A stretch of 45,020 bases of DNA from Candidatus Saccharimonadota bacterium (lineage in GTDB: Bacteria > Patescibacteriota > Saccharimonadia > Saccharimonadales > JAICHO01). This document shows positions 32,744 through 38,443 of the stretch, one piece after another. Position 1 is the stretch's first letter. The number at the start of each line of letters is the position of its first letter. The translations under genes and the position numbers were made by a program. A model generated the notes under the pieces. It searched no databases. It was not told the DNA's origin and worked only from the letters and a program-made list of their open reading frames with translations. Location: assembly GCA_025924835.1 (NCBI GenBank), contig JAICHO010000004.1:1-45020 (forward strand), given 5' to 3'.

Positions 32744-32786
32744 ACATGCTTTTTGTCTTGCGGTGTTTTTTGGTTACAATGTGCTC

Positions 32787-33542
32787 ATGATTATTTTAGG
32801 TATGACCGGGCCGATTGGCCATGGCAAATCCACGTTCGCGGACGCATTAGCGGTACTGGAAGAATCCACTGTTCATTTTGAGTCATCATTGATCATTGCC
32901 GAGGTCGCTAATGCCATGCAAAACGCGCTTACTGATATTCCGGATCCATACAACGTTGAGCAACTGAATAATTGGCTTCGTTGCTTGCCACCCATTTTAG
33001 CAGAAATTATCCATGTGAATTGCGCGTATGAGCAACTAAAACTAGAACAAAAAGCCATGGAAGAACACCCGGTGGAATATCAAAAGCTGATACTGCATGT
33101 TGAGAACATGCAAAGAAAGCCGGAGCTGATGCATCAATTAATTACTAAGGAAAATAAAGAAAGCTACCGCCCGCTGCTGCAATGGTTAGGCGGGTATCTG
33201 GTACAGAAAATCGATAGTGGTGTGTGGTATAACGAGATTGTTCGGCGAATGCGCCAAGCGGCAGACGCAGGCTGTAAGCTCTGTATCGTCGGCGGATTAC
33301 GCTATCCAACTGACGCGGCTATTTTGCGCGGAGCCGGCGCCATAATAGTCAAGGTTTACCGGCCGGGACACTTACAAAGTGACATGCTTGACCCGACTGA
33401 ACGTGAACGACAAAACATACAAGTAGATTGCACCATCATGAGCAACGGTACCGTGGCAGACGTGCGTAAATTTGCCGAGTTATTTTACCAGGATTTAAAA
33501 GATAATAAGATCGAAAAAATTTACCATACAGCTACCGTATAA
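32787..33542 (+). CDS. P-loop (deoxy)nucleotide kinase-like protein
   Basis: MIILGMTGPIGHGKSTFADALAVLEES; Walker A; terminal REN/adenylate-kinase-like architecture uncertain. Confidence 0.6.
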   Translation: MIILGMTGPIGHGKSTFADALAVLEESTVHFESSLIIAEVANAMQNALTDIPDPYNVEQLNNWLRCLPPILAEIIHVNCAYEQLKLEQKAMEEHPVEYQKLILHVENMQRKPELMHQLITKENKESYRPLLQWLGGYLVQKIDSGVWYNEIVRRMRQAADAGCKLCIVGGLRYPTDAAILRGAGAIIVKVYRPGHLQSDMLDPTERERQNIQVDCTIMSNGTVADVRKFAELFYQDLKDNKIEKIYHTATV

Positions 33543-35393: not shown

Positions 35394-36095
35394 ATGGGTG
35401 TATATAGTAATACGCAGATCAAGCAGGCTATCAAAGAGGGCCATATTATCTTTTTCCCTTACATCGAGCAACATATCGCTGGTAGCAGTGTAGATGTAAC
35501 ACTAGGGGATTGGTATTACCGCACGGAACGGCCCAGCGAAGGCGGGTTTTATAACCCTTTTGACGAGGCGGCCGTAAAACAGTACTTTGGCTCACCACTC
35601 CGAGCCGAGATTCACCATGAATGGGCGGAGAAACATGGGCGCAAGCCGTTTGCAAATATACCGCTCGACCACCGTATCATAGTCCTGCGGCCGCAAGAAC
35701 GAATACTCGGTCATACGCATGAGTTTATCGGTATTAAGGCGCCCGGCACAAGTACCATGCAGGCCCGTAGCACATGGGGGAGAAACGGCGTGGCAGTTTG
35801 TCTAGACGCTGGGTGGGGAGACCCAGGATATATAAACCGTTGGACAATGGAAATTTATAATATGAACCAGCACGAAAGCGTGGTTCTGCCGGTGGGCGAG
35901 CGGGTGGCGCAGATGGTTTTTTATGAAACAGGTCCCGTGGACAGCGAGTACAAAAAGCTAAGCGGTAAATATCAGCCAGGCGAGAGTGATGACCTGGATA
36001 ACATCATAGCCAGCTGGAAGCCCGAACAAATGCTACCACGCGCCTATAAGGATAAACGCCGTGTTCCTGAGGTAATAAAAGGTTTAAAAGCATGA
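35394..36095 (+). CDS. dcd: dCTP deaminase family protein
   Basis: GSSVDVTLGDWYY, STMQARSTWGRNGVAVCLDAGWGDPGYINRWTMEIYN. Confidence 0.9.
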   Translation: MGVYSNTQIKQAIKEGHIIFFPYIEQHIAGSSVDVTLGDWYYRTERPSEGGFYNPFDEAAVKQYFGSPLRAEIHHEWAEKHGRKPFANIPLDHRIIVLRPQERILGHTHEFIGIKAPGTSTMQARSTWGRNGVAVCLDAGWGDPGYINRWTMEIYNMNQHESVVLPVGERVAQMVFYETGPVDSEYKKLSGKYQPGESDDLDNIIASWKPEQMLPRAYKDKRRVPEVIKGLKA

Positions 36096-38443
36096 TTGAC
36101 GCCAAAGAAGCCGCCAGGGAACGCGGCACATTTATTGTAATTGAGGGAACAGATGGGTCAGGCAAGGGCACGCAGTTTGCCAAGCTTGTGCAGCGGTTGG
36201 AGTCCGAGGGTTACGATGTTGTGACGTTTGATTTTCCGCTTTATGATGATCCGTCGTCATATTTTATTCAGCAGTATCTAAATGGCAAATATGGTAGTAG
36301 CAAAGAAGTCGGCCCATATACAGGTTCTCTATTTTTTGCCCTGAATCGCTACGACGCATCCTTTGCCATCCGTGATGCCCTAGATGCCGGCAAGATAGTA
36401 GTCGCCAATCGTTTTACTGGCAGCAATATGGCCCACCAGGGTGGTAAATTTGAACATGCCGAGGAACGGCGTGGATATTTTATCTGGGTGGATAATTTGG
36501 AATTTGAAATGCTCAAGATTCCGCGACCCGACAGGTCAATTGTACTCCGCATGCCGGCGGATATGGCCCAAAAACTGGTGGACAAAAAGCCTGCCCGCAG
36601 CTACACGGAGCACAAACGAGATCTTCATGAGGCCGATTTACATCATATGGAACGATCTGTTGAAGTGTACGACGATTTGTGCCAACTGTTTCCGAAAGAT
36701 TTTGTAAGGCTGGACTGCGTACGGGATGGCAAACTGCTGGACATAGATACTATACATGCTCTGCTTTGGCAAAATATTGAGCCTTTATTACCCGCTAAAC
36801 CAAAAAAGTCTAGTACTGCCGAGCTTAAAGCTGAAAAATCAGTTAAGTCCATTGTGGCCGATAACCCCTATATTAAAAAAACAAAGGCAGGTTATGAGAT
36901 AACAAAGGCTGGCGAGGAGTTTTTGGCCGAATGTGTCACCGATATTAGTGATAACGTTTATGCCTTTAATAGCAAGCTTGGTCCATTGACAGTTGCGGCG
37001 GCCATGGCTCGCTTATCGCGCCGTGGCGATGATATGCGCATTACTATTTTGGATGAATTCGCCGGTAATTTGGGTAAAGATGAGAAATTGTTACAACGGG
37101 TCATCACGGCATACGGCGATGATTCGGTCCAACAACTTGCCGGCGTGCATGTAGTGGTAGAGGGCGCGTCAAACATTTTGACCAAAAAACTAGAATGGGG
37201 GCGTCTGGGGGCATATCTGGAGCAGTCAACCCGATACATTTATCTAGATAAAAAAGATTCGGATGGCAACTATAGATACTACACGCCAGAACGCCTAGAT
37301 GCTAAGGCCAATAAAATCTACAGAATTGCCATGGATGAAATTTTTGATGAGTACTCAGATATGGTCCATAAAGTTACGGATTACGTCCGCAGCAACGACA
37401 AAACCCCTAAAAGCGAACAAGACATAGCGTGGCAGGGTGCTACGCGGGCTCAAGCCTGTGACGCCGTACGGCCGGTGCTGCCCGTGGCCACTAAATTAAC
37501 CGTTGGGATTTTTGCGTCCGGCCAGGCACTGGAAAGCCTAATCATGCACTTGTTAAGTGATGAGCTACAAGAAGCCCGTGAAACGGGTCAAAAAATCCTG
37601 GATCAGGCACGCCACGTTATCCCAGCACTACTGGAACGTGCCGACAAGCCAGACCGCGGTGGAGCTCTCATCGCATATCGTGCCAATAAACACCGTGAGA
37701 TGCGTGAGCTAGCCCAAAAGTATTTACCAGACACACACAGCACTTCGACAGAAGCCATTAGCCTGAATTCCTTTTGGCCACGTAACGAAACTGATTTAGT
37801 CCCCGACATGCTTTATGAACACAGCACTCTATCCCTCAAAGAATTACAGGATACGGTCAGCAAATGGCCGATCGCCAAAAAAGAAGAAGTCTTTGTTGCC
37901 TATATGGGTGAGCGCTTAAACCGGCGTCACAGGCCCGGACGAGCTTTAGAAAAAGCTCATTATAGCTGGGATTTATTGTGTGATTATGGCATCTTCCGCG
38001 ATCTGCAACGTCACCGTATGGTTGACGATATGGAATGGCAAACACTTACACCACGTTACGGATATGAAATACCACAACTCATAGAAGATGCCGGCTTAAG
38101 TGAACAATATGAAAAATGCTTTGAGCTAAGCTTAAAGCTACACAGCCACTTGCAGTCAGCAGGATATGAAGCCGAGGCGCAGTATACTACGCTTCTGGGC
38201 CACCGTATGCGCTGGAAAGTTACCTACAACGCGCGGGAGGCCTTTCACCTGCATGAGCTCCGCACCAGTCCGCAAGGCCACCCAGGCTACCGCAAGCTAG
38301 TTCAGCAAATGCACGAAAAGCTGGCCGAGGTTCATCCTATGATGGCCGAAGCCATGAAATTTGTGAATCAAGGTGAGGACGAAGCCCTGACACGTTTAGC
38401 TGCCGAACGCTACACTCAATTCAAGCTGCAACAGCTAAGCTAG
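36092..38443 (+). CDS. fused thymidylate kinase - tandem ThyX (flavin-dependent thymidylate synthase-like) protein, 783 aa
   Basis: N-term FIVIEGTDGSGKGTQFAKLVQRLESEGYDV...RYDASFAIRDALDAGKIVVANRFTGSNMAHQ = Tmk; first ThyX-like repeat with EWGRLGAYLEQSTRY; second with DLQRHRMVDDMEW and NAREAFHLHELRTSPQGHPGYR. Confidence 0.85.
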   Translation: MIDAKEAARERGTFIVIEGTDGSGKGTQFAKLVQRLESEGYDVVTFDFPLYDDPSSYFIQQYLNGKYGSSKEVGPYTGSLFFALNRYDASFAIRDALDAGKIVVANRFTGSNMAHQGGKFEHAEERRGYFIWVDNLEFEMLKIPRPDRSIVLRMPADMAQKLVDKKPARSYTEHKRDLHEADLHHMERSVEVYDDLCQLFPKDFVRLDCVRDGKLLDIDTIHALLWQNIEPLLPAKPKKSSTAELKAEKSVKSIVADNPYIKKTKAGYEITKAGEEFLAECVTDISDNVYAFNSKLGPLTVAAAMARLSRRGDDMRITILDEFAGNLGKDEKLLQRVITAYGDDSVQQLAGVHVVVEGASNILTKKLEWGRLGAYLEQSTRYIYLDKKDSDGNYRYYTPERLDAKANKIYRIAMDEIFDEYSDMVHKVTDYVRSNDKTPKSEQDIAWQGATRAQACDAVRPVLPVATKLTVGIFASGQALESLIMHLLSDELQEARETGQKILDQARHVIPALLERADKPDRGGALIAYRANKHREMRELAQKYLPDTHSTSTEAISLNSFWPRNETDLVPDMLYEHSTLSLKELQDTVSKWPIAKKEEVFVAYMGERLNRRHRPGRALEKAHYSWDLLCDYGIFRDLQRHRMVDDMEWQTLTPRYGYEIPQLIEDAGLSEQYEKCFELSLKLHSHLQSAGYEAEAQYTTLLGHRMRWKVTYNAREAFHLHELRTSPQGHPGYRKLVQQMHEKLAEVHPMMAEAMKFVNQGEDEALTRLAAERYTQFKLQQLS

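Follow-up and report, generated by a model that had tools for sequence, protein, structure and literature searches.

A dTMP kinase-tandem ThyX fusion in Saccharibacteria whose two ThyX halves keep complementary active-site residues

Flavin-dependent thymidylate synthase (ThyX), a drug target, has an unusual mechanism. Because its four active sites are identical, the roles of its subunits are difficult to tell apart. Chlamydial ThyX is unusually long. In Chloroflexi, a duplicated-domain ThyX was noted in 2009 as an uncharacterised protein (PMC3224940), and no further open-access paper on ThyX domain duplication was found. Here, we describe an open reading frame of 783 amino acids (36092..38443, + strand; all features below lie on this strand unless stated otherwise) in a 45,020-nucleotide stretch of Saccharibacterial DNA (the window), which joins a dTMP kinase to two ThyX halves and raises the question of whether two halves that have each lost different active-site residues could form working sites together. 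Neither a partition of residues between ThyX halves nor a fusion to a kinase was found in the open-access literature searched, and open-access papers on Saccharibacteria and thymidylate synthase held nothing on this protein.

The preliminary description of the locus had read it as a single polypeptide of Tmk and a tandem ThyX, and this reading holds, with start, stop, strand and length exact and Pfam domains in agreement: Thymidylate_kin (PF02223) matches residues 17-167 (E 8.5e-16), and Thy1 (PF02511) matches two stretches behind the kinase (protein E 4.3e-34). The fusion scores below the NCBIfam ThyX equivalog cut-off (44.8 vs 87.9 bits). The dTMP kinase domain (about aa 11-235; 36122..36796), of a lineage here called type I, has M. 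tuberculosis Tmk as its closest solved relative and carries the P-loop EGTDGSGKGTQ (aa 18-28; 36143..36175), conserved in fused rows. A linker (aa 236-284; 36797..36943) leads to the dUMP-side half, ThyX-N (about aa 285-545; 36944..37726), and the FAD-side half, ThyX-C (about aa 546-760; 37727..38371), which match a profile of 58 canonical ThyX (hhalign, E 7e-17 and 7e-21, respectively) and barely align to each other. Modelling of the full-length fusion with AlphaFold from 52 homologues gave a mean pLDDT of 90.5, with low confidence only at residues 1-5 (N-terminus), 241-255 (linker; pLDDT < 50 and probably flexible) and 760-762, and the tandem ThyX by itself gave a pLDDT of 91.1 and a pTM of 0.87. 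All 50 PDB matches listed for the tandem model are ThyX-family chains (TMt about 0.7 at the top), the highest-ranking of which include PolB and the ThyX of M. tuberculosis, T. maritima and PBCV-1, and the top 50 matches listed for the full-length model are Tmk only. No solved structure of any tandem ThyX was found by profile search. The C-terminal region, which might have proved unrelated to ThyX, is ThyX-like by Pfam, hhalign and predicted fold.

Immediately upstream of the fusion, a dCTP deaminase family gene (dcd; 35394..36095; PF22769, E 3.7e-33) overlaps it by 4 nt (ATGA). At 58 of 60 fused loci, some of which share a genome, the fusion is preceded on its own strand by a dCTP deaminase homologue, which is mostly overlapping or adjacent. 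The host genome (1.0 Mb) has one PF02223 kinase, SHMT (a methylene-folate source) and DHFR, and neither ThyA nor a second ThyX was detected in it. On sequence grounds the fusion is likely to be a bifunctional enzyme of the dTTP pathway, a dTMP kinase joined to a duplicated flavin-dependent thymidylate synthase, and could carry dUMP to dTDP in one protein. Together, dcd and the fusion would lead from dCTP through dUTP (or dUMP) and dTMP to dTDP, and the fusion would mark a compact dCTP-to-dTDP module of cells whose genomes measure about 1 Mb; channelling or fixed stoichiometry may be its benefit. Three further features of the window were recorded. About 2 kb upstream of dcd, an ORF (32763-33542) matches Pfam DNMK, the phage-type deoxynucleotide monophosphate kinase family, above cut-off (E 9.7e-9) and is a possible second dTMP kinase of the genome. 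A convergent 139-aa ORF (38421-38840, - strand), which overlaps the 3' end of the fusion by 23 nt, has no family match and was found, among the compared fused loci, only at the window's own. At 39954-41809, the gene for a threonine dehydratase shares 4 nt with a gene of the RidA family, which is known to clear the reactive imine product of that enzyme.

Separate profile-profile alignments were made of each ThyX half against a canonical reference of 58 sequences: T. maritima ThyX, whose residue numbers are used here, and 57 single-domain enzymes of Chloroflexi and Actinomycetota. Viral single-domain ThyX made poor references, some being without RHR, and cellular ThyX were used instead. The tandem set comprised 128 distinct sequences (67 from Saccharibacteria and near relatives, 14 from other Patescibacteria, and 47 from Actinomycetota, Chloroflexi and Rokubacteria). 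H53, E58, R78, H79, R80, S88, R90, R147 and R174 are invariant in the canonical enzymes, and Y91 and N163 nearly so (57/58 each). In the tandems, ThyX-N keeps S88, R90, Y91 and R147 (128/128 each) and E86 (127/128) and has lost R78 in 125/128, while ThyX-C keeps R78 and R174 (128/128 each), R80 (127/128) and H79, N163 and R165 (126/128 each). No ThyX-C has an Arg at the R147 position (0 of 128) or a conserved Ser/Arg at the place of S88/R90, where the alignment of the active loop is gapped, and R80 is the sole residue kept by both halves. Each half conserves its own retained set at 98-100%.

In the window, ThyX-N carries EQSTRY (aa 377-382; 37220..37237), corresponding to E86 L87 S88 G89 R90 Y91, and R460 (37469..37471), corresponding to R147, which contacts the dUMP phosphate. 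Where canonical enzymes have the FAD motif R78-H79-R80, ThyX-N has W369-G370-R371 (37196..37204). ThyX-C carries that motif as R640-H641-R642 (38009..38017), along with N713, R715 and R724 (38228..38263), the counterparts of N163, R165 and R174. The signature RHRx7S is therefore absent from any one domain, RHR being found only in ThyX-C and the Ser only in ThyX-N, and the halves summed contain the full dUMP/FAD set (R78, H79, R80, S88, R90, Y91, R147 and R174). Complementary degeneration had been proposed from W369-G370-R371...S379 (first half) and R640-H641-R642...Q650 (second half); both motifs are present, opposite sets are kept by the halves in 128 tandems, and the partition is wider than the RHR and Ser first noted, extending to R90, Y91 and R147 in the first half and R174, N163 and R165 in the second. 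The folate-stacking H53 is missing from both halves, its position being Asp in 126/128 ThyX-N (D343 in the window) and aligning to no His in ThyX-C. In the region that holds H53-T55-E58 in canonical enzymes, ThyX-C has R608-x-N-R-R-H-[KR]-P-G-R-A-x-E620 (37913..37951), in which R608 (128/128), R611 (126/128) and E620 (126/128) are conserved among tandems, and the conserved C-half residues H613, H719 and H730 are candidate substitutes for H53.

Since the catalytic machinery is divided between the two copies, neither should work alone. In crystal structures, RHR and the uracil-contacting Arg (R174) lie on one subunit and E86', S88', G89', R90' and R147' on its neighbour (PMC5003785; M. tuberculosis and H. 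pylori ThyX, PMC6514825). The PolB structure sets residues 82, 83 and 193 of one monomer against 94', 96', 97', 98' and 166' of the next (PMC5003785), and in M. tuberculosis ThyX the RHR of subunit A binds FAD with Ser71 and Arg190 of subunit B (PMC6514825), which correspond to T55 and R165 in T. maritima numbering. The partition in the tandems matches the boundary between subunits A and C, and the prediction that residues of one subunit go together held for every partitioned residue in the 128 tandems. Had each of seven residues (R78, H79, R174, S88, R90, Y91 and R147) disappeared from one or the other half at random, agreement with the subunit assignment would be expected by chance at 2/2^7 = 1/64. 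Because the partition follows the crystallographic subunit boundary, composite active sites are in our judgement its best explanation (probability about 0.8, from sequence comparison), and the joint loss or retention of one-subunit residues supports the composite assembly suggested in the preliminary description. ThyX-C would supply the FAD/uracil-side set (RHR, N163, R165 and R174) and ThyX-N the dUMP-phosphate/active-loop set (E86, S88, R90, Y91 and R147). We infer a catalytically active dimer of tandems, a homodimer of the fusion that would restore a ThyX tetramer having, instead of four identical sites, two working ones, each made of a ThyX-C and a ThyX-N; two sites per dimer would follow with either arrangement of the halves. 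Retention of R165 in the C half favours a C-half/C-half pair that binds two FADs and to which the N halves would contribute the dUMP loops; as S345 (T55) is retained in the N half, this placement is tentative. Three observations count against the composite-site account, namely the loss of H53 from both halves, the split of the third-subunit contribution, with the T55/S71 phosphate contact in ThyX-N and R165 in ThyX-C, and the gaps in the alignment of the ThyX-C active loop.

Duplicate domains often give rise to one catalytic and one scaffold copy, and one ThyX half could accordingly form complete sites with its own copies, leaving the other as a structural or regulatory leftover; in one Chloroflexi tandem (L270), indeed, the first half is complete and the second is without R90 and R147. 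We consider this very unlikely for the fusion, since each half of the 128 tandems is without residues that are invariant in the 58 canonical ThyX and both maintain their own sets almost without exception. The concern that a frameshift, assembly or sequencing artefact has joined separate tmk and thyX genes could draw on split versions in some relatives (G016, G019, G045 and G048), and the kinase is a separate gene in other genomes as well (e.g. G034). It is refuted by recurrence, which leaves this explanation a negligible probability: kinase and both ThyX domains occupy one open frame in 35 of 61 independently assembled genomes of the same order, where matches of the fusion are mostly 54-72% identical, and the fusion is also present in named public MAGs; the best-matching named relatives are Saccharibacteria/Saccharimonadales MAGs. 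The single ORF in these genomes, along with the residue pattern in 128 tandems, excludes chance, frameshift and mis-assembly. Two in-frame stops interrupt the fusion ORF of one relative (L199 1534-3873, G032; 342 + 433 aa), and a contig labelled Parcubacteria (L137) bears a Saccharibacteria-like fusion, by transfer or from a mislabelled MAG.

Saccharibacteria are host-dependent, and the tandem might make no dTMP at all, catalyzing some other flavin-dependent nucleotide methylation or hydroxymethylation, with dTMP obtained by salvage from the host bacterium. The absence of H53 would suit a changed substrate, and PolB, a relative of ThyX, methylates UMP (PMC5003785). This is unlikely given the fused dTMP kinase, the adjoining dCTP deaminase gene and the retention of all dUMP-binding residues, and also given the distribution of ThyA: among the 61 relatives, an intact tandem occurs in 46, ThyA in 8 and both in none (Fisher p = 2e-6, kinship ignored). 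In five ThyA genomes the fused ORF is still open at 464-678 aa (L190 in G056, L191 in G036, L192 in G037, L193 in G002 and L194 in G052), and RHR, R174, S88 and R147 are gone from it; L192 and L193 have lost the kinase P-loop too. Decay of ThyX alongside ThyA behaves like a natural relaxation experiment. One further ORF (L195, G026) is decayed likewise, yet its genome has no ThyA match.

The kinase domain keeps its P-loop residues E18, G19, G24, K25, T27 and Q28 in 33/33 fused rows, and nucleotide-site R86 (with K25) equally in 33/33, while the aspartate of DR(Y/F) is N106 in the window (N in 21 and D in 12 of the 33). The N-terminal slot is filled by either of two unrelated dTMP-kinase lineages, type I (33 rows, with the window's kinase) and type II (26 rows). 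Between the window and the type II proteins, identity is 20-24% for the kinase, although it is 63-79% for the ThyX halves. On the kinase tree, the fused label must have arisen at least twice. Repeated kinase swapping, suggested by a quick ThyX tree in which the types were mixed (7 changes), was rejected; because the fit improved when type II formed a single clade (p-AU 0.948), we claim one replacement or a second fusion and no more. Other Patescibacteria carry the same type of kinase with a dUTPase fused C-terminally (L202 712-2115 and L203 1440-2774), and in another Patescibacterium a kinase stands behind a nucleoside 2-deoxyribosyltransferase-like domain (L204 533-1780).

Tandem ThyX without a kinase is widespread and thus not special to the fusion, and the complementary degeneration is older than the window's lineage. 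Five Chloroflexi tandems (L271-L275) have mostly lost RHR from the first half with H53 still there, and others among the Chloroflexi tandems show the pattern of the window. One duplication with complementary losses afterwards may account for these sequences. A relative in a jumbo phage of Tunturiibacter covers 87% of the tandem. A broader proposal, which we put at slightly less than even odds, is that the tandems form a large, unrecognised ThyX class that is obligately asymmetric, spread over several bacterial phyla and a jumbo phage, with two composite sites per tetramer-like particle and with folate handled, in most members, without the His53 that is universal elsewhere, to which Saccharibacteria would have recruited two unrelated dTMP kinases. 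In a natural tandem the halves are separately mutable, making testable the role of each subunit per step, the sufficiency of two sites and the role of H53.

Compared with known systems, the fusion is a variant within a known enzyme family and no new kind of system. Each tandem half shares the fold of ThyX (PF02511; T. maritima TM0449 and M. tuberculosis ThyX), and, halves summed, the FAD- and dUMP-binding residues other than H53 are all present; the tandem differs in having two non-equivalent domains per chain, each without half of the site and with H53 replaced, and in the two sites predicted for a dimer of tandems against four in ThyX. The kinase shares with M. tuberculosis-type Tmk (PF02223) its fold, its P-loop and the positions of thymine-contacting R86 and N112, and differs in its fusion to a tandem ThyX and in N106 for the DR(Y/F) aspartate, as in 21/33 fused rows. 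Protozoan DHFR-ThyA is also a bifunctional fusion around a thymidylate synthase, but it involves another synthase family and another pathway step is fused. The Tmk-dUTPase of Perigonia lusca nucleopolyhedrovirus likewise joins a dTTP-pathway enzyme to Tmk, with dUTPase rather than ThyX as the partner (PMC4895240). The duplicated ThyX of Chloroflexi is, like that of the window, a tandem in one chain, and the examined ones mostly show the same partition, but they have no kinase fusion, and the residue partition is not described in PMC3224940.
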